Shown in pieces: positions 8,341 to 28,592 of a stretch of DNA of 64,000 nt (positions within the stretch are counted from its first letter, which is position 1; each line of letters opens with the position of its first letter). The translations under genes and the position numbers were made by a program. Source of the DNA: Candidatus Pelagibacter communis. Its GTDB lineage: Bacteria > Pseudomonadota > Alphaproteobacteria > Pelagibacterales > Pelagibacteraceae. Below the pieces are notes generated by a model. That model was not told the origin of the DNA. It saw nothing but the letters and a program-made list of their open reading frames with translations, and made no database searches. The stretch is taken from positions 248,001 through 312,000 of the forward strand of contig NZ_CVSI01000058.1 of NCBI RefSeq assembly GCF_001179985.1, in the 5' to 3' direction.

Positions 8341-8745
8341 TTAAAAATTTCTAAGTGCTTTTTCTAAATATTTGAAATCTAATTTACAGTCTTTGTATCC
8401 TTGTTTGATTACATCAAGATACCTTTTGCTTGGGTAAATGAATAAACTCTTTTTAACCATGGTATAGGCCATAATTTTTTGACTATCATTATCAAAATAT
8501 ATTTTTTTATATAAGATTGGAAAATCCTCATATATATCAAGTTTTTTTTCATCTGATTTAGATATTTCGTAAAGCCCGCCTTGTATTGAATAATTTTTTT
8601 TTCTCTCTATATCTGCAACACCATATTTGCTTCTAAATGTAAGTCTAAAATCTTTGATTTCAAATTTCTTTATATATTTAGAGTCCCTGCATCTTTTTTT
8701 CATTTGAAAATGATTTAGGTTACTTCCGTAAGCAAAATATAACAT
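8341..8745 (-). CDS. Gamma-glutamylcyclotransferase family protein
   Basis: A 134-residue protein beginning MLYFAYGSNLN. The FAYGSNL motif (residues 4-10) is the substrate-binding loop of the GGCT/AIG2-like fold, and Glu73 in IYEDFP is in place for the catalytic acid. Members release 5-oxoproline from gamma-glutamyl peptides or amines, for example in glutathione turnover. It lies between azlC and a CinA-like gene with 0-6 bp spacing. Fold and catalytic motif are clear; the physiological substrate is not. Confidence 0.82.
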   Translation of the reverse strand: MLYFAYGSNLNHFQMKKRCRDSKYIKKFEIKDFRLTFRSKYGVADIERKKNYSIQGGLYEISKSDEKKLDIYEDFPILYKKIYFDNDSQKIMAYTMVKKSLFIYPSKRYLDVIKQGYKDCKLDFKYLEKALRNF

Positions 8746-8751
8746 TTTGAT

Positions 8752-9495
8752 TTAAACTATTTGAATTTCTTTATCTTTAACAAATTTTATTATTTCTGAT
8801 TTACAAAATTCAATTTTGTTTTTATCTGTTGATCTAAGCACTATTGCAACACCAAGCTTGCCAGCCTTAAAAAAGGGATAGCTGCCAATCTCAACATCAG
8901 TATTTTTATTTTGTACATCAGTTAAAGATTTTGCGATTTCACTTTCAACAGTTCGTAAATTTATTGTTTCACTTAAGATAGGTTCGCCACCTGCAATTTT
9001 ATTTGTTAAACTACCAAGCATCGACTGCATTATCGATGGTACTCCTGGTAAACAAAAAACATTTTCCACATTAAAACCTGGAGATCCACTTGATGGGTTA
9101 TATATCAAATTTGCTGTTACAGGCATTTTTGCCATTTTTTTACGACCTTCATTAAACTCGCCTGGTTTATAATAACTTTCTAAAATTGAATATGCCTCTT
9201 TATGAAAACCATACTCTATATTGAAAGCTTTTGAAATTGACTCTGCTGTAATGTCATCATGTGTTGGTCCAATTCCTCCAGTAGTAAATACATAGTCATA
9301 AGATTTACGGTATTGATTGACAGTATTTATAATTGTTTGTTCATCATCTGGTATAATTTTTACTTCTTTAACTTTAACTCCCAAAGAATTTAGCCATGTG
9401 GCAAGCGTACTTGTATTGATATCTTTAGTTCTGCCAGACAGTACTTCGTTACCAATAATTATAATTCCAGCAATTATTTCTTTCTTATTTGGCAT
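8752..9495 (-). CDS. CinA N-terminal (molybdopterin-binding-like) domain protein
   Basis: The start is placed at the ATG 9493-9495 (MPNKKEI). An upstream extension to 9558 would read through the divergent sfsA start and adds only an unrelated hydrophobic leader. The protein (about 247 residues) contains GIIIIGNEVLSGRTKD, TTGGIGPTHDDIT and FCLPGVPSIMQSML, the MoCF/CinA signature. The C-terminal nicotinamide-nucleotide amidase domain of full CinA is absent. Stand-alone CinA domains of this kind act as pyrophosphatases on nucleotide substrates in related proteins; the role here is inferred. It is divergent from sfsA with only 22 bp between starts. Confidence 0.82.
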   Translation of the reverse strand: MPNKKEIIAGIIIIGNEVLSGRTKDINTSTLATWLNSLGVKVKEVKIIPDDEQTIINTVNQYRKSYDYVFTTGGIGPTHDDITAESISKAFNIEYGFHKEAYSILESYYKPGEFNEGRKKMAKMPVTANLIYNPSSGSPGFNVENVFCLPGVPSIMQSMLGSLTNKIAGGEPILSETINLRTVESEIAKSLTDVQNKNTDVEIGSYPFFKAGKLGVAIVLRSTDKNKIEFCKSEIIKFVKDKEIQIV

Positions 9496-9517
9496 ATACA
9501 AATATAAATTAAATATT

Positions 9518-10204
9518 ATGAAATTTACCAATACTTTAATTAAAGGCAAATTAATCAAGCGATATAAAAGATTTTTTACAGATATAAAAGTAAATAATTC
9601 AATAGTTACGGCTCATTGTCCTAACACAGGTTCCATGAAAGGTCTTTTAGATAAAAATAATACGGTATTTTTGTCTAAAAGTGATGATCCAAAAAGAAAG
9701 TTGAAATTTACTTTGGAAATTATAGAAGCTAATAAAAAACTAGTTGGAGTAAATACTCACAGGGCAAATAAAATTGTTGCTGATGGATTAAACAAGGGAT
9801 TGATAAACGAATTTAAATCCATAAAAAATATTAAACCTGAATTTAAATTTTCAAGTGATACTAGGTTCGATTTTTTATGTGATAAAAATATAATTGAAGT
9901 AAAAAATGTTACTCTTTTAAGAGATCAAAAAGTAGCTGAATTTCCTGACGCTGTTACTGAAAGAGGCGCTAAGCATCTAAAAAAGTTAATTGATGCTTTA
10001 AAACAAGGCTATAAACCATTTGTCTTATTTTTAACTCAAATACAAGGTATTAATAACTTTAAAATAGCTAAAGATATAGATTTAAATTATTACAAAAATT
10101 ATTTAATAGCTAAAAAGAGTGGCGTAAAGTTTTTAGCCTATAGATGTTTATTAAGTAGCAAAGAAATTAAAATTGAAAAAAAAATAAATATTATTGATGA
10201 ATAA
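9518..10204 (+). CDS. sfsA: SfsA family protein (sugar fermentation stimulation)
   Basis: The start is set at the ATG 9518-9520 because the protein then begins MKFTNTLIKGKLIKRYKRF, matching SfsA N-termini. An upstream extension would overlap the divergent gene by 179 bp. Characteristic stretches are AHCPNTGSMKGLL, DTRFDFLC, IIEVKNVTL and FPDAVTERGAKHLKKL. The D-E-K pattern resembles a PD-(D/E)XK nuclease-like fold; E. coli SfsA binds DNA, but its cellular job is not settled. 228 residues. Its end overlaps the start of map by 8 bp, so it probably leads the map-pur operon. Confidence 0.9.
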   Translation: MKFTNTLIKGKLIKRYKRFFTDIKVNNSIVTAHCPNTGSMKGLLDKNNTVFLSKSDDPKRKLKFTLEIIEANKKLVGVNTHRANKIVADGLNKGLINEFKSIKNIKPEFKFSSDTRFDFLCDKNIIEVKNVTLLRDQKVAEFPDAVTERGAKHLKKLIDALKQGYKPFVLFLTQIQGINNFKIAKDIDLNYYKNYLIAKKSGVKFLAYRCLLSSKEIKIEKKINIIDE

Positions 10205-10967
10205 TTATTCTGAAAAATTTGAAAAAATGAGAAAAGCTGGGTCACTTGCATCTAATACCCTAGACATGATTACAGGTTACATTAAACCTGGTTTAAGCAC
10301 TAATAAAATAGATGAATTGTGTTATGAATTTATCAAAGATAATGGTGGCCACTCAGCCCCACTTTATTATCGTGGTTTTAATAAATCTATATGCACATCA
10401 TTAAATCATGTTGTTTGTCATGGAATACCAGGTGAGAGAGTTTTGGAAGATGGAGATATATTAAATATCGATGTGACTGCAATACTTCACAATCATTACG
10501 GTGATACAAGTCGAATGTTTACAGTAGGAAAACCCTCAGTCAAATCAATGAATTTAATTAATGTAACTTATGAGTCTTTAATGAAATCAATTGAAATTTT
10601 AAAACCTGGGAAAAAATTAGGTGACATTGGTCATGAAATACAAACTCATGTGGAAAAAGCAGGTTTTAGTGTTGTAAGAGATTTTTGTGGACATGGTATA
10701 GGCGATGTATTTCACCAAAGTCCAAATATATTACATTATGGAAAAAAGAATACAGGACCTGAATTACAACCTGGGATGACATTCACAATAGAGCCAATGA
10801 TTAATGCTGGCAAATATGAGGTTAAAATTTTAAATGATGGATGGACAGCCGTAACTAAAGATAAGACCTTATCTGCGCAATTCGAACATACAGTTGGTAT
10901 AACTGATAATGGATATGAAATTTTTACAGAATCTGTTAAAAACTTAAAGAGGCCTCCTTATAATTAA
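10197..10967 (+). CDS. map: Methionine aminopeptidase, type I
   Basis: 256 residues from the ATG at 10197; a TTG one codon earlier is a possible alternative. The five metal ligands fall in expected blocks: Asp in ILNIDVTAI, Asp in HYGDTSRMF, His in CGHGIGDVFHQ, Glu in TIEPMINAG and Glu in AQFEHTVGI. VCHGIPGERVLEDGD is also typical. It removes the initiator Met from nascent proteins in the cytoplasm and is essential in most bacteria. It overlaps sfsA upstream and shares one base with purB downstream (TAATG at 10965-10969). Confidence 0.96.
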   Translation: MNNYSEKFEKMRKAGSLASNTLDMITGYIKPGLSTNKIDELCYEFIKDNGGHSAPLYYRGFNKSICTSLNHVVCHGIPGERVLEDGDILNIDVTAILHNHYGDTSRMFTVGKPSVKSMNLINVTYESLMKSIEILKPGKKLGDIGHEIQTHVEKAGFSVVRDFCGHGIGDVFHQSPNILHYGKKNTGPELQPGMTFTIEPMINAGKYEVKILNDGWTAVTKDKTLSAQFEHTVGITDNGYEIFTESVKNLKRPPYN

Positions 10968-13962: not shown

Positions 13963-16154
13963 TTAAGGTGAACGAAAAAATTGCAATAGATCATGGTCTT
14001 AAAAAAGATGAGTATAAAAGAATATGTGAGCTTTTAAAAAGAAATCCAAACATAACAGAATTAGGAATTTTCTCTGCCATGTGGAATGAACATTGCTCAT
14101 ATAAATCATCAAAAAAGCATCTTAAAAAACTTAATACAAAAGGAAAAAAAGTTATTCAAGGTCCAGGAGAAAATGCCGGAGTAATTGATATAGGTGATGA
14201 TGATGCAATAGTTTTTAAAATTGAAAGTCATAATCACCCTTCCTTTATTGAACCTTATCAGGGAGCAGCTACTGGTGTTGGAGGAATTCTAAGAGATGTT
14301 TTTACAATGGGAGCACGTCCAATTGCTAATTTAAATTCTATACATTTTGGTTCCCCATCTAACAAAAAAACAAAAAGTCTTTTGAGGGGAGTGGTACAGG
14401 GAATTGGTGGGTATGGTAATTGTATAGGTGTACCAACTATTGCTGGTCAAACAAGTTTTGACGAGTCTTACAATGGCAATATTCTTGTTAATGCAATGAC
14501 ACTAGGTCTAGTGAAAAAAGATAAAATTTTTTACTCCAAGGCTGCTGGATTAAACAAGCCAGTTATTTATGTTGGATCAAAAACAGGAAGAGATGGAATT
14601 CATGGTGCAAGTATGGCTTCAGCAAAATTTGATGACAAAATTGAGGAAAAAAAACCTACAGTCCAAGTAGGTGACCCATTTACAGAAAAATTATTATTAG
14701 AGGCATGTCTTGAGCTAATGAGAGACGACTCAATTATTGCAATCCAAGATATGGGTGCAGCTGGGTTAACGTCTTCAAGCGTTGAGATGGCCTCAAAAGG
14801 AAAACTTGGTATTGAATTACATTTAGATAAGGTTCCATGTCGTGAGGAGAATATGTCTCCCTACGAAATTATGTTATCAGAAAGTCAAGAAAGAATGTTG
14901 ATAGTACTTGAAAATGGTAAAGAAAATAAAGCAAAAGAAATTTTTGACAAATGGAATTTAGATTTTTCTGTAATTGGAAAAACTACAAACTCAAAAAATA
15001 TTGAGCTGTATTTTAATAAAGATAAAGTTGCAAATATTCCTATTGATTTACTTTCTGAAGAAGCTCCTGAATACGACAGAAAATGGAAAAAAAGTAAATT
15101 GCCTCAAAAAATAAAGTTTAAAAAAAAAGATTTTAAAAATTTAAAAATTACTGAAGTTCTTAAGAAAATAATTTCAAGTCCAAATGTTTGTTCAAAAGAA
15201 TGGATTTGGGAACAGTATGATCATACAGTAATGGGTGACACTATTCAAAAACCTGGTGGTGACGCTGGTGTTGTAAGAGTTCATGGAACTGAAAAAGCTA
15301 TTGCTGCAACAGTAGACTCTTCAGCTTCTTATTGTTATGCACATCCTTTAAGTGGTGGTAAACAAATAGTATGCGAAACATGGAGAAACTTAATATCTGT
15401 AGGCGCTGAGCCAATTGCAATAACAAATTGTTTAAATTTTGGGAATCCGGAAAAATCTGAAAATATGGGTGAGTTTGTAGAATGTGTAGAAGGTTTAAAT
15501 GAAGCAAGTAAATACCTAGACTTTCCAGTCGTTTCTGGAAATGTTTCTTTTTATAATGAGACTAAAGACAAAGGTATTAAACCAACGCCTGCTATTGGTG
15601 GAGTGGGGTTAATTAAAAATTATAAAGATATGATAACAATGGATTTAAAAGAAACTGGAAATATAATTCTTGTTGTTGGTAAAACTGAGGGTCATTTAGA
15701 TCAAAGTATCTTTGCTAAAGAAATCTTAAATGAAAAAAAAGGACCACCTCCAGAAATAAATCTTTTTAATGAAAAAAATAATGGTGAAACTGTTTTAAAA
15801 TTAATTAAAGATAAGTTCATAATGTCAGCTCATGATGTTTCTCTTGGAGGGATAATGACAGGAATTGCAAAGATGTGCATTAAGGGAAAAAAAGGAGTTA
15901 AATTTTATAAATTTAAAGGATTAATAGATAAATTTGAATACTTTTTTTCTGAAGATCAAGGAAGGTACATTGTTGAAGTAAAAAAAGAAAACTTTGAAAA
16001 AGTAAAAAAAATACTTGAAAAAAATTCAAATCATTATGATTTAATAGGTGAGGTAATCGGGGATAATATATCTATAAATAATGAGCCAACTTTATCAGTA
16101 GACAAATTAACAGAATTCAATAAAAATTGGCTAAATAAGTATATGGTAAACTAA
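13959..16154 (+). CDS. purL: FGAM synthase, large subunit (small-type PurL)
   Basis: 731 residues, the size of the small PurL that needs separate PurS and PurQ, both encoded just upstream. Recognisable blocks are [44 protein letters not shown] with the catalytic His, [15 protein letters not shown] and [18 protein letters not shown]. It converts FGAR to FGAM with ATP. The stop shares one base with the BolA-family start (16154). This ends the purine block; a BolA-glutaredoxin pair follows in the same operon. Confidence 0.97.
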
Positions 16155-16399
16155 TGGCGATGAATTTAAAAGAAATTGAAAGTATGATTAAAGAGGCTTT
16201 GCCAGATGCTATAATTGATATTCAAGATTTAGCTGGTGATGGAAACCACTATTCAGCTACAATTACCTCTTCAGCATTTAATGGTAAAAGTAAAATTGAG
16301 CAACACAAAATGATTTATAATTCTTTAAAAGGTAAAATGGGAAATGAATTGCATGCTCTTGCATTAAAAACAAAGGAAAAAAATGGACCAACAAACTAA
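16154..16399 (+). CDS. BolA/IbaG family protein
   Basis: An 81-residue BolA-like protein with IESMIKEALPDAIIDIQDLAGDG at the start and HKMIYNSLKGKMGNELHALALK at the end, containing the conserved helix and the His used with glutaredoxins to bind a [2Fe-2S] cluster. It overlaps the monothiol glutaredoxin gene by 17 bp; BolA with CGFS glutaredoxin is a known functional pair in iron-sulfur trafficking. The name IbaG or BolA cannot be decided from sequence alone. An internal Met at codon 3 is an alternative start. Confidence 0.9.
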   Translation: MAMNLKEIESMIKEALPDAIIDIQDLAGDGNHYSATITSSAFNGKSKIEQHKMIYNSLKGKMGNELHALALKTKEKNGPTN

Positions 16400-16715
16400 A
16401 GAATTAATTGAAAACAATATTAACACAAATGAAGTCTGTTTATTTATGAAGGGAACACCAGATGCACCTGAGTGTGGTTTTTCAATGGCAGTTGCAAATA
16501 TGTTAAAAATTTTAGAAGTAAGTTTTAAAAGTGTTAATGTGCTTAGTGATCAAAGTATAAGAGAGGGTATAAAAAAATTTAGTGAATGGCCTACTGTTCC
16601 GCAATTATATGTTAAAAAGGAATTTGTTGGCGGGTGTGATATTGTTAAAGAGATGTTTGAAAACGGGGAACTCAAAAAGCTTTTTGAAGACAAACAGATT
16701 AAATATAAAAAATAA
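16383..16715 (+). CDS. grxD: Monothiol glutaredoxin, CGFS type
   Basis: 110 residues with FMKGTPDAPECGFS, the active-site CGFS of Grx4/GrxD monothiol glutaredoxins, followed by WPTVPQLYVKKEFVGGCDIV, which binds glutathione. Such proteins carry [2Fe-2S] clusters with BolA partners, and the partner gene overlaps upstream. Its stop at 16713-16715 lies 2 bp from the stop site of a decayed rpsD end on the opposite strand, indicating that grxD and rpsD were once tightly convergent. Confidence 0.95.
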   Translation: MDQQTKELIENNINTNEVCLFMKGTPDAPECGFSMAVANMLKILEVSFKSVNVLSDQSIREGIKKFSEWPTVPQLYVKKEFVGGCDIVKEMFENGELKKLFEDKQIKYKK

Positions 16716-16794
16716 TTATATCTAGAGTAATATTCAATAACTAAGTTAGGTTCCATAACTACTGGATATGGGACTTCTTCAAATATTGGTGTTC
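16707..16794 (-). pseudogene. rpsD: Remnant of rpsD 3' end (displaced copy)
   Basis: These 88 bp match the end of intact rpsD (19300-19387) at 81 of 88 positions without gaps, at a constant offset of 2593 bp. Read on the minus strand it gives [14 protein letters not shown] and then NLVIEYYSR, the S4 C-terminus, but the stop TAA has become TAT, so the frame runs on into grxD antisense. Of six changed codons, four are silent, one is Lys to Ile and one is the stop loss. No start, no rest of the gene. It marks the left boundary of an inserted segment carrying the autotransporter. Confidence 0.85.
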
Positions 16795-19299
16795 AGTTTA
16801 AAAAGACTTAAAACTTTTTTGCCAATTCTATTGTTGCGCCATAGTCATCTATTTCGCTAAGTAAATTATAGTTTGAACTTAATTTTACATCAAAACCGTT
16901 TATATCTTGATTAAAATTAATCCTTGCAGTTTCATTTTCCAGCTCTAAAACAAACTCTTCATTTCTATGAGTAACATATCCAGTTAAAAAATATAAAGTA
17001 TCACTATGACTATTTTCAGTTTGGAATCTCTCATAAAAAAACATCATTGAAAGACCCGTTTCATTTAATATATCAAAACCAATTTTACCTTTAATACTCT
17101 CATCGTCCTCTTGATCAATAGATTTAGTATATTTTGTGTTGGAGTCTGACACATAGTTTAAAGAAACATCGGAACTTGGGCTAAGATCATAGCCAAAGTC
17201 TAAAGCCATGGACGGTCTTAAAATGAAATCCTTTTTCAAAATTTCATTACTTACAATAAAACCTCCCGATATACCTAGAGTCTCAACAGTTTGTTTGTCG
17301 TACTGAAGGGCATTAATTCCTTTTTCACTATAATCATCTAAAGTTGTATAGCTAATATCTAGTTTAAAGTTTGGGGATATGTCTCTATTATCTTTTTTAA
17401 AAGTATTTATATAGTGCAAAGACCCAAAAACTTGATTTCCATCTCTATCACCATTTAAAGTATTGTTGCCATCTTTTCTTATATTTTTGAAATCGAGCAT
17501 ACTTAACCCTAAAATTCCCTCTAAATATTTATTTTTTCCAATGTTGAGTGTTCTATAAGTTGAAAAACTGTATGCATCAATATCTGTAGATGTGCCCTTA
17601 TTACTCACATCTACATCCTCATCGGTGTAAGTAATAGTGTAACCTTGTACGGTTTTTTCATCAGTTTTTTTATCAAATCCTAATGTTATTGCATTTGAAG
17701 AAATATCCTTTCTTGATGAATTTTTAGTGCTACCAACTCCTCCAACACTTACACTACCCTCACTCCAAAATAACCAATTTTCGTTTATATTTTTTTGAGG
17801 TTTGTTATAATTGATTGATTGAAAAAGTACTTCTGAAAGTTTTTTTAGTTTAGGGTCAACAAAATTTAGGTTAATACTTTGAGGTTTTAAATCTTCTTCC
17901 AAGCTATAACCTCTAATCCAATTAAGTCTATTGAAAATTGGGCTGATTACATGCGAAAGTATTTTTTTAGGTGCACTAGTTTGAGCTTCGATCAATCCTA
18001 CTACATCTTTATTATTTAATGGATTTGATCTTGTGGTTCCAGTTGAAAAATTATAAGTAGTTTTATCAGTACTTGGTATCCCGGCATAATTATTTCTTGA
18101 AATATCTATGATTGCAGTTGCATCTATCTGAACGTAATAATCTGAATTTATCTCTAAATCAGATGATGGATTCAAAGTTATTTGAGTATTACTTGTTAAA
18201 GTTGCATCAGTTTCCACATTAAAAGTTTGCACAACACTATCGTCACTAGCTTTTTTTAAAGTAATATTTCCACTTCCAATTTTAATAATTTCACTGAAAT
18301 TTAAGACTATATTTGTGGAACAATCTACATCTGTTTCATTATCACTTGGTGAAGATGAACTTAATGTTGGGGCAGTTCCTGGAAAATCACTATTATCCCA
18401 ACTAGGGCTATTAATAAGCGTTCCGTCATTGTTATTTATCTCTCCAAATAATGTGGATGATCCTGTTCCATTATTTTCCCCATTTACCTCATCATCCATT
18501 GACCAATATTCACTTAAAGATCCTGAGGAGGCATAATCACCATAATTCTCGCCTGCATATAAAGTTTCTCCCCCATTATATAATTGTACTATTTCAGCGT
18601 CAGAGAGTGTTGAACTCCATATACCCACCTCGTCTATTTTTCCGTTAAAATGATATTTTACTTTATTGTCAGCATTATTTGGAATATGAGGATATTTGTT
18701 AGTTCTACCAGCACCTATGTACAATCTTTGATTTGTGTTTTCAACAATTGGAACTCTGGCATTATTTCCATTTGCTATCATAACACCATCAACATAAAGT
18801 TTCATTACGTTCGTAGACTCTTGAAATGTTACGGTCTGCATTTGCCAGGTTCCAATATTTATGTCTGTGGTGGAATTCACTTGTGCCCAGGTATCATCAT
18901 CAGCTCCATCACCTGCCCAAAAAGACCATTCTTCATCAGCTGCTATATAAACCATGAAGCCACCTCCTTCATCGCCATTAATCGTGTCTGTTCGAGATGT
19001 CACTGCTGACTGATAATCACTTGAAGCTCCTGTTTTTACCCAAACATTAACTGAAAAATCACCTGTTGGGTTCATTGACGCGTCAAAAGGAAAGTCTACA
19101 TAATTTGTTGATCCATCAAAACTCAATGAATAATCAGCTGAAAAAGCATAATTTTTATAACCTAGAAAAGAAACTAAAAATAAAATTGTAAAATTATTTT
19201 TATAATTACAAAAAAATTTTAAATATATATTTGAAAATAATTTCATTTAATTCAAATATAAACTAAATACTTAAATTATTAACCAATATTTTATATTAA
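16795..19299. mobile_element. Putative cassette inserted at the rpsD 3' end
   Basis: The segment between the two rpsD ends holds a single gene, a LamG autotransporter, on the rpsD strand. Duplication of the target gene's end on both sides is what results when a foreign segment with its own gene-end joins by recombination, as for islands at tRNA ends. No integrase, transposase or inverted terminal repeat is visible, so if it moves it depends on homologous recombination or a recombinase elsewhere. The orientation would let it be read from the rpsD promoter. The flanking repeat is seen; mobility is inferred. Confidence 0.5.
16808..19246 (-). CDS. LamG-domain autotransporter, predicted surface protein
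   Basis: An 812-residue exported protein. Residues 1-37 form a signal peptide with a hydrophobic core (ILFLVSFLGY) and a likely cleavage after AFSA. About 38-230 is a LamG/concanavalin-like domain (LSFDGSTNYVDFP, WQMQTVTF, YVDGVMIA, KIDEVGIWSSTLSDAEI). About 291-402 is a Big_5/SbsA-type Ig-like domain (SSPSDNETDV, IVLNFSE). About 490-812 looks like an autotransporter beta-barrel of alternating strands ending in Phe (ATIELAKKF). It would be secreted and anchored in the outer membrane, perhaps binding a carbohydrate or particle. It is flanked by duplicated rpsD ends and is very probably acquired. The ligand is unknown. Confidence 0.82.
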   Translation of the reverse strand: MKLFSNIYLKFFCNYKNNFTILFLVSFLGYKNYAFSADYSLSFDGSTNYVDFPFDASMNPTGDFSVNVWVKTGASSDYQSAVTSRTDTINGDEGGGFMVYIAADEEWSFWAGDGADDDTWAQVNSTTDINIGTWQMQTVTFQESTNVMKLYVDGVMIANGNNARVPIVENTNQRLYIGAGRTNKYPHIPNNADNKVKYHFNGKIDEVGIWSSTLSDAEIVQLYNGGETLYAGENYGDYASSGSLSEYWSMDDEVNGENNGTGSSTLFGEINNNDGTLINSPSWDNSDFPGTAPTLSSSSPSDNETDVDCSTNIVLNFSEIIKIGSGNITLKKASDDSVVQTFNVETDATLTSNTQITLNPSSDLEINSDYYVQIDATAIIDISRNNYAGIPSTDKTTYNFSTGTTRSNPLNNKDVVGLIEAQTSAPKKILSHVISPIFNRLNWIRGYSLEEDLKPQSINLNFVDPKLKKLSEVLFQSINYNKPQKNINENWLFWSEGSVSVGGVGSTKNSSRKDISSNAITLGFDKKTDEKTVQGYTITYTDEDVDVSNKGTSTDIDAYSFSTYRTLNIGKNKYLEGILGLSMLDFKNIRKDGNNTLNGDRDGNQVFGSLHYINTFKKDNRDISPNFKLDISYTTLDDYSEKGINALQYDKQTVETLGISGGFIVSNEILKKDFILRPSMALDFGYDLSPSSDVSLNYVSDSNTKYTKSIDQEDDESIKGKIGFDILNETGLSMMFFYERFQTENSHSDTLYFLTGYVTHRNEEFVLELENETARINFNQDINGFDVKLSSNYNLLSEIDDYGATIELAKKF

Positions 19300-19387
19300 A
19301 AAAAATAATTTTATCTAGAGTAATATTCAATAACTAAGTTAGGTTCCATGACTACTGGATAAGGAACTTCTTCGAATTTTGGCGTTC
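19300..19387. repeat. Right copy of the 88-bp rpsD-end duplication
   Basis: The last 77 bp of intact rpsD plus 11 bp beyond its stop, matching 16707-16794 in the same orientation with 7 mismatches. The match extends past the stop codon into aaaaaataatt, though the outer A-run could match by chance or because grxD ends there. Similarity ends abruptly after 19387, upstream of codon PKFEE, where the rest of rpsD continues with no counterpart on the left. Confidence 0.85.
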
Positions 19388-19928
19388 TAACAAATTTAAT
19401 TTTTCTATTTTTCTCATCAACTTGTAGATATTCGGGCGTTTCTCTCTCTTTACTTGCTAATGCTATATCTATTATAGCTAATTGTTTAGATTTATCTCTT
19501 ATTTCTACAGTGTCCTCATCTCTTAACTGGTAGCTTGATATATTAACTTTCTTACCATTAACTCTTACGTGACCATGATTGATAAATTGTCTTGATGAAA
19601 AAATTGTTGTTGAAAATTTAGCTCTGTAAACAACTGAGTCTAATCTTCTCTCTAATAAACCTATTAAGTTTTCAGCAGTATCACCTTTCTTCATAATAGC
19701 TTTTCTATACACATTTCTAAATTGTCTCTCGTTTAAATTTCCGTAATAAGATTTTAGTTTTTGTTTTGCCTGAAGTTGAATACCATAATCTGATGGTTTA
19801 GAATTTTTGGTCTGGCCATGCTGTCCAGGAGGATAAGCTCTTTTGTTGAATGGACTTTTGGGTCTTCCCCAAAGGTTGACTTTTAATCTTCTATCAACTT
19901 TATGTTTAGATTTTAATCTTTTCGTCAT
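19311..19928 (-). CDS. rpsD: Small ribosomal subunit protein uS4
   Basis: 205 residues with the S4 pattern: N-terminal [30 protein letters not shown]-like segment ([13 protein letters not shown]), the S4 RNA-binding domain ([29 protein letters not shown]) and a C-terminus ending EYYSR. It binds 16S rRNA early in assembly and can repress its own translation in some bacteria. The final 77 bp are duplicated at 16718-16794, so its 3' end may derive from a recombining donor allele. Upstream is a 40-bp gap after trmJ. Confidence 0.97.
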
Positions 19929-24551: not shown

Positions 24552-25289
24552 TTAATTAGGAATCTTGCATACTGGAATTGGCTCCATTTTATGCAAATTT
24601 GTTTTTCTTATTTGAATGTATTTATCTCTATTTTTTGAATTTTCGTTGTCCATGGCCTCCTCTATCTCTTTATAAGATAACCCAAGTTGACCCTCATCTG
24701 TTCTACCATCATCCCATAATCCATCAGTTGGTGCAGCATTAATTATATCGTCAAGAATTTTTAGTTCTCTTCCAAGTTCCCAAACTTCTGTCTTATTGCA
24801 GTCAGCTATTGGAGAAATATCAACACCACCATCACCATATTTAGTATAAAAACCTACACCAAAATCCTCAACTTTGTTTCCTGTTCCAACAACGATTCCA
24901 TTATTTGCAGCAGCAACTTGATAGAGTGTCGTCATTCTCAATCTAGCTCTAGAATTGGCCATTCCATGTATACTATCAAATTTACCTAAGGTGTTTTCAA
25001 AAGTTTTAAATAAACTATCTAGCTCTAAAGTGTGACCCTGCACATTTTTGAAATTTGTTTTTAACCATTCTTGATGTCTTAGACTTAAATCATGTTGAGT
25101 ATCTTTTTGCTTTATTGGCATAGATAAAACTATAGTTTTTAGGCCTGTCATTGCACTTAATGTGCTTGATACAGATGAATCTATACCTCCAGATATACCA
25201 ATTACCAATGACTCAGCCTTTTTTGGCATTGAATTTACGTAACTTAAAATCCAATTTTTTATAAAAATCGCTTTTTTAGATGTGTCCAT
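24552..25289 (-). CDS. nadE: NH3-dependent NAD synthetase
   Basis: 245 residues with the N-type ATP pyrophosphatase loop ISGGIDSSVSS, and VVGTGNKVEDFGVGFYTKYGDGGVDI and SPIADCNKTEVWELG typical of NadE. No glutaminase domain is attached, so ammonia is used directly or supplied by another protein. It amidates deamido-NAD to NAD, the last step of NAD synthesis. It lies 45 bp upstream of cysS and 37 bp downstream of the DAHP synthase gene. Confidence 0.94.
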   Translation of the reverse strand: MDTSKKAIFIKNWILSYVNSMPKKAESLVIGISGGIDSSVSSTLSAMTGLKTIVLSMPIKQKDTQHDLSLRHQEWLKTNFKNVQGHTLELDSLFKTFENTLGKFDSIHGMANSRARLRMTTLYQVAAANNGIVVGTGNKVEDFGVGFYTKYGDGGVDISPIADCNKTEVWELGRELKILDDIINAAPTDGLWDDGRTDEGQLGLSYKEIEEAMDNENSKNRDKYIQIRKTNLHKMEPIPVCKIPN

Positions 25290-25326
25290 GATTTAAATAT
25301 AGTGTAAAAATTAAATATTTAAATGA

Positions 25327-26706
25327 CTAAGATGCCGCTTTAATTGCATTTCTTGCATAATTGGAATTCTTTTTAATCTCATCAGAAATTAAAAAAGCTA
25401 ATTCCAAAGCTTGGTCTGCGTTTAATCTTGGGTCACAATGAGTATGATATCTGCTTGATAAATCTTGATCAGATATATTTTTAGCACCGCCGGTACATTC
25501 TGTCACATTTTGACCTGTCATTTCTATATGAAGTCCACCAGCATAAGATCCTTCACTTTGGTGAACCTCAAAAACATTTTTTACCTCTTTAACAACATTA
25601 TTAAATGGTCTTGTTTTAAAACCAGTTGTTGAGACTAAAGTATTGCCGTGCATCGGATCGCATGACCACACAACATTTAATCCCTCTTTTTTTATTCCTC
25701 TTATTAATTTCGGCAAAAACTTTTCAACTTTATCATGCCCATATCTCGATATAAGGGTAATTTTTCCTTTTTCATTTTTTGGATTTATAGCTTCACATAT
25801 TTTAGCAATTTCATCAGCTTTTGAAGTTGGTCCACATTTAATACCGATTGGATTTTCAATCCCTCTGCAGAATTCAACATGGCCACCATCTAATTGTCTA
25901 GTTCTATCTCCAATCCAAACAAAGTGAGCTGAAGTATTATGATATTCACCTGTTGTTGAGTCAGTTCTTGTCATACTTTCTTCATAAGGTAAGTGAAGAG
26001 CTTCATGTGAAGTCCAAAAATTAACTGTGTATAGTCTTCTATTAAATTCTGGTGTTATTCCACAAGCAGCCATAAATCCAAGAGCATCAGCAATTTTGTC
26101 TTCTAATTCTTTAAATTTTTTAACTTGAGGACTATTTTTAATATAACCTAAATTCCATAAGTGGACTTTTTTTAAATCTGCAAAACCTCCGTGCGAAAAA
26201 GCTCTCAATAAATTTAATGTCGCTGCGGATTGTGAATAAGCTCTGAACAATCTCTTTGGATCTGGTCTTCTAGCCTTCTCATTAAATTCAATTGAATTTA
26301 TATTGTCTCCTAAATAGCTAGGTAATTCTTTTCCACCTTGTTTTTCAGTTGGTGCACTTCTTGGTTTAGAGAATTGGCCCGCAATTCTACCAAGCTTAAC
26401 AACTGGCAAAGATGCTGAATATGTTAAAACAAGTGACATTTGCAAAATAACTTTAAAAGTATCTCTTATATTATCAGGATGAAATTCTGCAAAACTTTCT
26501 GCACAGTCTCCTCCTTGAAGTAAAAATGCCTTACCATCTACAACTTCAGCAAGTTGATCTTTTAAATGTCTGGTCTCTCCAGCAAAAACTAATGGTGGTG
26601 ATGACTTTAATTTATTCAACACCATGTTAAGTTCTTTCTCATCATCGTAAGATGGAATGTGCTTAACTGGATATTTTCTCCAAGAATTAACTTTCCAATT
26701 TTTCAT
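25327..26706 (-). CDS. DAHP synthase, class II
   Basis: 459 residues. AFLLQGGDCAESF carries the metal-binding Cys of class II (AroAII) 3-deoxy-D-arabino-heptulosonate-7-phosphate synthases. Other blocks are RAYSQSAATLNLLRAFS, SHEALHLPYEESMTR, KCGPTS and WSCDPMHGNT. It joins PEP and erythrose-4-phosphate as the entry to the shikimate pathway. No other aromatic gene is adjacent; glmS lies 65 bp upstream. Confidence 0.95.
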   Translation of the reverse strand: MKNWKVNSWRKYPVKHIPSYDDEKELNMVLNKLKSSPPLVFAGETRHLKDQLAEVVDGKAFLLQGGDCAESFAEFHPDNIRDTFKVILQMSLVLTYSASLPVVKLGRIAGQFSKPRSAPTEKQGGKELPSYLGDNINSIEFNEKARRPDPKRLFRAYSQSAATLNLLRAFSHGGFADLKKVHLWNLGYIKNSPQVKKFKELEDKIADALGFMAACGITPEFNRRLYTVNFWTSHEALHLPYEESMTRTDSTTGEYHNTSAHFVWIGDRTRQLDGGHVEFCRGIENPIGIKCGPTSKADEIAKICEAINPKNEKGKITLISRYGHDKVEKFLPKLIRGIKKEGLNVVWSCDPMHGNTLVSTTGFKTRPFNNVVKEVKNVFEVHQSEGSYAGGLHIEMTGQNVTECTGGAKNISDQDLSSRYHTHCDPRLNADQALELAFLISDEIKKNSNYARNAIKAAS

Positions 26707-26771
26707 ATTTCAACCTTAAGATGAATATATATCCAAATTATGTCAAATTAGAATAGATAATATAAAAAAAA

Positions 26772-28592
26772 TTACTCTACAGTTACTGATTTTGCTAGGT
26801 TTCTGGGTTTATCAATGTCGTAACCTTTTTTTAGAGCAGTATAGTAAGCTAATTTTTGAAGTGGAATTGTTATTAAAAAAGGCAACAAATCATCTTCTGT
26901 ATTCTCAACTTCAATTTTTTGCCAAATATTTTCTGAGAATATCTCATCAGTGCTTTTGTTTGTTATTAATAAAACTTTAGCACCTCTTGCTATAACCTCT
27001 TGCATATTGGACATTGTTTTTTTGTAATATTCATCTCTTGGAGCAATAACTACAACTGGCATACCATCTTCTATTAATGCTAAAGGACCATGTTTCATTT
27101 CACCAGCTGGATAACCTTCTGCATGAATATAGGATAATTCTTTTAATTTAAGTGCGCCTTCAAGTGCTATTGGATATGAGTAACCTCTACCTAAAAACAT
27201 AGAACCTTTTATATTTGTAAAACTATTTGATATGGTTTGAATATCGTTTTCAGATTTTAAAGAAAGCTCTATATTTTTTGATAAATTTAATAAGCTTTTG
27301 ATTTTTGAAATATAATCTTTTTTCTTAATATCATCATTAAGTTTACCCATTTTAAGACATAATAAATAAAGTACTAACATTTGTCCTAAAAAAGCTTTTG
27401 TTGAGGCAACACCAATTTCTGGACCACAATGTATCGGTAAAACAAATTTTGAGTCTCTTGCAATTGAGCTTTCTACTACATTTACAACAGAACATGTTTT
27501 CACATTATTTTTATTACATAAATCTAAAGCTGCATAAGTATCAGCTGTTTCTCCAGATTGAGAAACAAAGACGTACAAAGTCTCTTTTTTAAATCTATTT
27601 TTTCTGTAACGAAATTCTGATGCAATATCTATATGAACATCAAAAGAGGTAAGTTGTTCAAACCAATATTTTGCAATTAAACAAGAATGATAAGCAGTCC
27701 CACAACCTACTAATGTAATTGATGATATATCTTTTATTTTCCAGGGAAAATTAAAAATACTTATTTCATTATTTTTTTTATCAATATATTCATTTATGCA
27801 ATTTTTAATTGTTAGTGGCTGTTCGTCAATCTCTTTAGCCATAAAGTGTTTGTAATCACCTTTATTATAATTTTGTTCATCAGTTGTTAATGAAAGGATC
27901 TTCTTATTTATTTTTTTTCCTTGTTCGTTAAAGAAGCTTACTTCTGTTTTTTTGATAATACAAAATTCACCATCATCTAAGTAGGTAATTTTATTAGTCA
28001 TAGATTTTAATGCATAAGAATCTGAACCTAGGTAATTTTCACCTGGACCATAACCAACTGCTAGGGGTGAGCCTCTTCTTGCACCAACAATTAAGTCTGG
28101 TTCATCTTTAAAAATTATTCCTAATGCAAAACTACCATGAAGTTTTTTTAAAACTTTTGTTAATGTGTCTATTAAATTATTTTTTTTTAAATATTCTGTA
28201 ATTAAATGTACAATCACCTCTGTGTCTGTTTGAGATTTAAATTTATGTCCCTTTTTAACTAAAAATTTTTTTAATAGAGTTGAGTTTTCTATAATGCCGT
28301 TATGAACTACTGAAACGTTGTCTGATGAGTGAGGGTGAGCATTTAAAGTGCTAGGTATACCATGAGTAGCCCATCTAACATGACCTATTCCTAAATTTCC
28401 TAGCAATTTATTTTTAATAATATTTTTTTCAAGATTGTCTACTCTTCCCTCACACTTTACTTCTTGAATATATCCGCTATTTAATGTTGCAATACCAGCT
28501 GAGTCATATCCTCTATATTCTAATTTTCTGAGTGAGTTTAAAATAGTTGATGTGACTTCTTTATTACTATTAATTCCTATAATACCGCACAT
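26772..28592 (-). CDS. glmS: Glutamine-fructose-6-phosphate aminotransferase
   Basis: 606 residues. It begins MCGIIGI, so Cys2 becomes the N-terminal nucleophile of the class II glutaminase domain. GHVRWATHG and HNGIIEN follow. The C-terminal half has two SIS domains (VGCGTAYHSCLIAKYWFE, FVSQSGETADT, HAEGYPAGEMKHGPLALI) and ends KSVTVE. It makes glucosamine-6-phosphate for cell-wall synthesis. It sits 3 bp after the glmU-like gene. That 3-bp gap leaves no room for a glmS ribozyme leader. Confidence 0.97.
   Translation of the reverse strand: MCGIIGINSNKEVTSTILNSLRKLEYRGYDSAGIATLNSGYIQEVKCEGRVDNLEKNIIKNKLLGNLGIGHVRWATHGIPSTLNAHPHSSDNVSVVHNGIIENSTLLKKFLVKKGHKFKSQTDTEVIVHLITEYLKKNNLIDTLTKVLKKLHGSFALGIIFKDEPDLIVGARRGSPLAVGYGPGENYLGSDSYALKSMTNKITYLDDGEFCIIKKTEVSFFNEQGKKINKKILSLTTDEQNYNKGDYKHFMAKEIDEQPLTIKNCINEYIDKKNNEISIFNFPWKIKDISSITLVGCGTAYHSCLIAKYWFEQLTSFDVHIDIASEFRYRKNRFKKETLYVFVSQSGETADTYAALDLCNKNNVKTCSVVNVVESSIARDSKFVLPIHCGPEIGVASTKAFLGQMLVLYLLCLKMGKLNDDIKKKDYISKIKSLLNLSKNIELSLKSENDIQTISNSFTNIKGSMFLGRGYSYPIALEGALKLKELSYIHAEGYPAGEMKHGPLALIEDGMPVVVIAPRDEYYKKTMSNMQEVIARGAKVLLITNKSTDEIFSENIWQKIEVENTEDDLLPFLITIPLQKLAYYTALKKGYDIDKPRNLAKSVTVE

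Follow-up and report, generated by a model that had tools for sequence, protein, structure and literature searches.

We analyzed the junction between the genes rpsD and grxD in a 64,000-nucleotide stretch of the Candidatus Pelagibacter communis genome (assembly GCF_001179985.1, contig NZ_CVSI01000058.1, positions 248,001 to 312,000; hereafter the window). The junction contains a single autotransporter gene and a displaced second copy of the rpsD 3′ end. On the minus strand, a complete working rpsD (19311-19928, 205 residues with Ribosomal_S4 and S4 domains) is followed by a spacer (19247-19299) and by the only long open reading frame (ORF) of the insert (16808-19246). On the far side of the insert, a complete working grxD (16383-16715, identified by domain search) points toward rpsD on the plus strand. 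The 812-residue product of the ORF contains a LamG-like domain (residues 44-219), a Big_5 domain (291-402), and an autotransporter beta-domain (493-736; PF03797, 3.1e-28), and this C-terminal beta-domain is the feature that places it among the autotransporters (type V). The ORF, which we call the cargo, is thus predicted to encode a surface protein of the autotransporter type. The repeat consists of positions 16707-16794 and 19300-19387, which are identical at 81 of 88 bases, have the same orientation, and lie 2593 bp apart from start to start. It tops all direct-repeat families between positions 15500 and 20800 (91 nt, 91% identity, spacing 2593) and matches only two places in its own genome at E ≤ 0.001 (945 kb, 75.5% complete). 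The in-place copy (19300-19387, minus strand) includes the rpsD 3′ end and about 10 further bases, and the displaced rpsD tail (16718-16794, minus strand) adjoins grxD.

Among the last 24 rpsD codons, six differ between the two copies: four changes are synonymous, one replaces Lys with Ile, and one removes the stop. Codon -25 (ACG/ACA), also within the repeat, is a fifth synonymous change. The repeat pair, its orientation and spacing, the single gene between the copies, the six changed codons, and the lack of an integrase in an insert whose one long ORF is the autotransporter gene all agree with an initial annotation of this DNA. The same scar is carried by G069, L003, and L004 (L004 and G253, which agree in contig position, are apparently the same genome and are counted once). 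A chance repeat is rejected, given the 81/88 identity and the presence of the repeat in these four genomes. At the stop position, the displaced copies read TAT in the window and L004, and TAA in L003 and G069. The stop loss is therefore not old, because only two of the four displaced copies have it.

Throughout the genus, the rpsD-grxD junction accepts insertions. Named genomes were collected with an rpsD search, of which the best 80 loci were kept, all Pelagibacteraceae by title. Among 201 genomes drawn evenly from the genus, rpsD was matched at E ≤ 0.001 in 155, and the junction was recovered for 140. With a junction scored as empty at a gap of up to 60 bp, 88 of the 140 are empty and 46 have an insert; in 4, the recovered stretch contains no grxD, and in 2 it is too short. 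Strains free of the insert, as predicted by the initial annotation, include L001, L002, L005, G321, G016, and G035; the first three have rpsD and grxD end to end, and their rpsD protein is 98-100% identical to that of the window. L003 and L004 have the same autotransporter gene with the same repeat as the window. Inserts that exceed the median gap by 300 bp or more are present in 22 of the 79 named loci with both genes, compared with 21 of 785 for 14 other neighboring junctions pooled (the L065 duplication described below is counted among the 21). Tolerance of inserts is expected here, because rpsD and grxD are the only convergent pair among the junctions compared. Two further junctions, equivalent to window positions 24552-28592, have inserts in 6/66 and 7/59 named loci.

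The same position holds different contents among strains, the pattern by which replacement islands are recognized. Autotransporters of several kinds are among them, as many as three side by side in L073. Other inserts hold small methyltransferases, a cyclopropane-synthase-like gene, or ORFs of 526-540 residues, one of which was tested against Pfam and gave no match. Each insert of 600-760 bp contains one ORF of 200-250 residues, and methyltransferase domains were found in all four such ORFs tested (L185, L168, L165, and L228). Structured RNA in inserts of this size is rejected, with no Rfam match in L029, L031, L058, L075, or L001. The suggestion that the site holds different genes in different strains is thus supported, with surface genes as one cargo class and not the only one. 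Most insert ORFs run in the direction of rpsD, with exceptions in L095, L110, L181, and L192. The L181 insert (G062) and L110 (G152) have ORFs of 301 and 425 residues on the strand opposite rpsD, neither with a Pfam match. In L160 (G032:C16), rpsD is split at an empty junction, apparently by a frameshift, which is probably an assembly error.

Relatives of the cargo are found at the same junction, at 92% DNA identity and without the repeat, in G029, G056, and G111 (L115-L117). The last 300 rpsD bases of these three genomes are 77% identical to those of the window. In G029, the 92% of the cargo contrasts with 80% for the complete rpsD and with 77% and 75% for the two flanks. In genomes of the G029 type, the stop codons of the cargo and of grxD overlap, and the sequence continues into grxD. 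Comparison with L115 allowed us to recognize a fragment that the initial annotation had not noticed: the 18 bp adjoining the autotransporter stop (16794-16811, plus strand) are the last five codons and the stop of another grxD (QFKKT*), and they overlap the stop of the cargo in the way seen in L115. In the window, the overlap is kept as in the G029 type, five grxD codons follow, and then the displaced rpsD tail begins. The two tails meet at 16791-16794, where three bases are common to both sides if the grxD parent was L115-like.

The two working genes are of the resident type in alignments with relatives. Over its last 90 bases, the working rpsD differs from L001 at 2 positions, from L002 at 3, from G321 at 4, and from L005 at 7. 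After its stop, about 10 bases match the empty relatives, and the sequence is donor-like from there on, the spacer aligning to L115-L117 and not to the empty relatives. The initial annotation had proposed that a segment with its own rpsD end replaced the resident end. This is not supported, as the working end is of the resident type and the foreign sequence begins about 10 bases past the stop. The annotation identified the site correctly, and its account of which sequence replaced the other is probably mistaken.

The last ~38 bases of the displaced tail, together with the next 12, are within one difference of L001, L002, and G321. None of 201 distinct rpsD tails comes within three differences of its upstream 37 bases; each has at least four, and the nearest is G321. 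This is suggestive, and not proof, of a displaced tail that is a mixture of two types. Part of the difference could be attributed to later decay, as the nearest relative differs at four coding sites and the stop. When 399 genomes were searched with the pattern of the displaced allele, allowing no more than 3 mismatches, 14 matched, with CCCA at -55/-52 only in G000, which is the genome of the window, G069, and G253. These three matches are the displaced copies themselves, and no living source of the allele was found among the 399 genomes. The earlier reading of the two ends as alleles of two strains stays plausible and is weaker than claimed, because the empty G321 differs little from the displaced tail (three synonymous sites, one non-synonymous site, and the lost stop in the coding part).

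Scars of the same make-up are found in two other lineages. When the 399 genus genomes were scanned with the rpsD C-terminus, 294 were positive and 8 had two matches. Five of these eight have scars (G000, G069, G253, G077, and G221), one has a split rpsD (G032), and in the remaining two (G084 and G204) the second match is weak and lies at another place. The rpsD tail of another scar, in G137, was detected only at E 0.04, and decayed scars are therefore undercounted. The initial annotation expected other inserts to be framed by rpsD ends, and most are not, with a second rpsD tail in 6 of the 294 rpsD-positive genomes. In G077/G221 and in G137, the joint of a grxD tail and an rpsD tail lies between two stacked autotransporter genes. 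The scar of G137, which came up when the inserts were searched for rpsD and grxD tails, is heavily decayed. In G077/G221, ~40 bases of grxD tail and ~95 bases of rpsD tail separate the genes for a 914-residue and an 845-residue autotransporter, and the two genomes share the scar at 94% over 3200 nt. The G077 joint has 8 bases common to both tails, for which the chance is 0.001 at a random joint.

The displaced tail of G077 matches one sampled allele only at its end. From -34 on, it is nearest to L046/L052, with 1 difference in 46 bases (next best, 5). The 3057 nt beyond it, which cover the next gene and grxD, agree with L046 at 98.8% identity, and the L046 allele has the order rpsD-845-residue gene-grxD. 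The upstream 59 bases of the tail have 6 differences from L046, and are nearest to L053, L279, L281, and the working rpsD of G221 itself, with 2 differences each. We think that the G077 scar probably formed in one lineage and that a crossover within the tail exchanged the part to its right. Second grxD tails also occur inside the inserts of G142 (96%) and G062 (90%), with no rpsD tail recognized; past this tail, the G142 sequence resembles the allele of L104, which has a single cargo, starting 17 bases beyond the rpsD stop. Inspection by eye of the spacers in the stacked L006, L024, and L073 revealed no clear scar. When 1990 gene-end segments from the 80 named loci were compared with their own locus at E ≤ 1e-8, second copies were found only in L065, L003, and L004.

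L065 contains a tandem duplication of the slot itself. At 8643-10783, a 1064-bp unit is repeated with zero mismatches across an empty site, giving two whole rpsD genes, and the units are joined at a word of 13 bases that trmJ and grxD share. A perfect duplication of this type was seen once. Across the genomes, the joints vary in position, at about -75, -83, and -98 in rpsD and within trmJ in L065. Site-specific integration, as in the island insertion at tRNA ends with which the initial annotation drew a parallel, is rejected, as the insert has no integrase and the joints differ in position; neither an island-supplied gene end nor a constant crossover point is seen.

The model we favour, at a little under an even chance, is a short-homology tandem duplication of the slot followed by homologous replacement of the cargo in one copy. 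The rpsD-grxD junction is a slot whose cargo is exchanged between strains, with homologous recombination in the core genes on either side as the probable route. The slot would occasionally be duplicated in tandem through a short-homology joint between the grxD 3′ end at its right edge and the rpsD 3′ end or an upstream neighbor at its left edge, giving rpsD-cargo-(grxD tail/rpsD tail)-cargo-grxD. The rpsD tail of this scar would offer homology, and a crossover there with another in or beyond grxD could swap the second copy for the version of another strain. The incoming version would be another autotransporter in G077/G221 and G137, and an empty slot in the window, where the scar alone would be left. 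The slot, the scars and their recurrence, the foreign grxD tail, and the partly matching tail of G077/G221 are observed, and the order of steps is inferred; the L065 duplication would be a view of the first step. In favor of the model are the position of the foreign grxD tail, between the cargo and the displaced rpsD tail, the repeat-free arrangement of G029, G056, and G111, the comparable scars of G077/G221 and G137, the 8-base joint of G077, the L065 duplication, and the divergence among the four carriers of the window scar. The window may have followed the same course. For the window itself, a single crossover or a one-step illegitimate event explains the data about equally well. The site may also multiply its own slots, each duplication adding a slot that is bounded by an rpsD tail and grxD and filled independently by homologous recombination, an extension that we regard as possible yet doubtful.

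Homology-facilitated illegitimate recombination would need only a single event, in which a linear fragment pairs by homology at one end and is joined through microhomology at the other. The fragment could be an occupied one entering an empty strain, which is nearest to the idea of the initial annotation, or an empty one entering an occupied strain. The 3-8 bases shared at the joints speak for such a mechanism, and a study of stacked Vibrio immunity genes (PMC5361080) proposes a similar one. A tail from one parent is expected in this case, whereas the tails of G077/G221, and less clearly of the window, match sampled alleles in part, unless a parent was unsampled. Entry of the fragment by ordinary transformation is also disfavored by the gene content of G000 and 30 relatives (15 of the 31 at least 90% complete): ComEC was found in 0/31 and DprA in 1/31, compared with 10/14 and 11/14 control genomes. 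Ku was likewise found in 0/31, and in 1/14 controls. Ku end joining and ordinary transformation therefore look absent, which bears on how SAR11 recombines. We consider the illegitimate route rather unlikely, yet it and the single crossover are serious rivals of the favored model. A Campbell-type single crossover, which we judge unlikely, would involve a circle of rpsD tail-cargo-grxD tail, closed at a short-homology joint and recombined with the recipient rpsD tail. Under this model, the two rpsD tails should be mixed in opposite ways, and the window fits this prediction, with a working copy that is resident upstream and foreign past the stop and a displaced copy that is non-resident upstream and resident at the end. 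The working rpsD of G077 does not, as it is not L046-like upstream of the break, contrary to what an L046-type recipient would give; over the gene it is 92.1% identical to L046, no nearer than to several others. No circle was observed.

Amplification chimeras form at short shared words, and many named relatives carry what we take to be single-cell-type isolate codes. An artefact of single-cell amplification or assembly could apply to L065, with its perfectly identical copies found once. For the window scar, an artefact is excluded, because four genomes carry this scar with 0.5-1.8% cargo divergence and differing later changes in the tail, and it is hard to reconcile with the sharing of one scar by G077 and G221 and the decay of another in G137; as a general account it has next to no credibility. 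Retention of the fragment for a function, such as ending the transcription of the cargo, would explain why the tail is still recognizable in several genomes. It is very improbable, as the stop is gone in two of the four copies, the G137 tail is decayed, and most inserts showed no tail in the search.

We note that several observations weigh against the duplication-and-replacement model. The L065 duplication may be an amplification artefact, and no genome with identical cargo on both sides of a scar was seen. The window joint shares 3 bases only (chance 0.06 for a random joint), and the 7 shared bases of the G137 joint hold only if its grxD was L006-like. The upstream 37 bases of the displaced tail differ from the working rpsD of the window itself at 6 positions; therefore, either the working copy was also overwritten after the duplication or two strains were involved from the start. 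For G077, no second crossover would be needed if the tail came from an unsampled L046 relative with another rpsD allele. The break is also weak by count, with differences to L046 on its two sides of 6/61 vs 1/74 in G077 (p 0.046) and 7/61 vs 2/74 in G221 (p 0.078), the split being chosen post hoc in both cases. Positions -85 and -70 were rejected as private sites of the G077 lineage, as 47 and 60 of 247 tails carry them, and the upstream part of the G077 tail therefore fits its own lineage without proving that origin.

The ingredients of this process are known, and their base-resolved combination is new. Replacement flexible genomic islands, as described in the accessible part of PMC4033161, likewise hold different surface-related genes at the same site, with Pelagibacter among the examples. 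Their exchange is by homologous recombination in flanking core genes, which is the probable route for the slot as well. They are reported there without boundary hallmarks, whereas such hallmarks are visible at the rpsD-grxD slot, which holds one to three genes and not a large cluster. The type VI secretion system immunity arrays of Vibrio cholerae (PMC5361080) resemble the slot in their repeated insertion beside a conserved anchor, with leftovers of earlier states, and homology plus a non-homologous joint was proposed for them. Their leftovers are immunity genes, whereas those found here are the 3′ ends of both flanking core genes, joined together. The SAR11 hypervariable regions HVR1-HVR4 also contain autotransporters in variable number, HVR1 differing by one between two strains, according to the accessible text of PMC2217521. 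The words rpsD and glutaredoxin were not found in that text, and the junction is therefore not described there by these names. Transformation-driven merodiploids of Streptococcus pneumoniae arise by tandem duplication through alternative pairing of repeats, with duplications of ~100-900 kb between long repeats (PMC3784515), compared with 1-3 kb and joints of 3-13 bases here. In a literature search with most subscription journals outside its coverage, no title or abstract start naming the rpsD-grxD junction was found.

SAR11 bacteria have small genomes and few mobile elements, and the junction bears on how they turn over surface genes. Empty, single, stacked, and scarred states are all seen at this one small junction across many genomes, and the feature in the window is a real, informative scar at a busy swap site. 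As the joints can be read to the base, it becomes possible to measure how, and how often, slots are duplicated and swapped. If the site does multiply its own slots, streamlined bacteria in which Ku and ComEC were not found, and DprA hardly at all, would stack surface genes by duplicating and swapping at an ordinary core-gene junction, and the sequence of events would be recorded in the scars.

In comparisons of the four genomes with the window scar, the cargo is 98.2-99.5% identical, the upstream flanks are 95.8-97.8% identical, and the downstream flanks are 90.9-96.0% identical. The cargo is less diverged than the flanks, which suggests spread by recombination after the scar arose. Carriage of the cargo by phages is rejected, as a scan of viral contigs gave four pattern matches with no relative among them. 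An autotransporter gene 86% identical to the cargo was also observed elsewhere, in G151 (L118, C1:65757-71153), where it adjoins a second autotransporter gene in what is perhaps another slot, next to a gene that we presume to resemble a primosome helicase.
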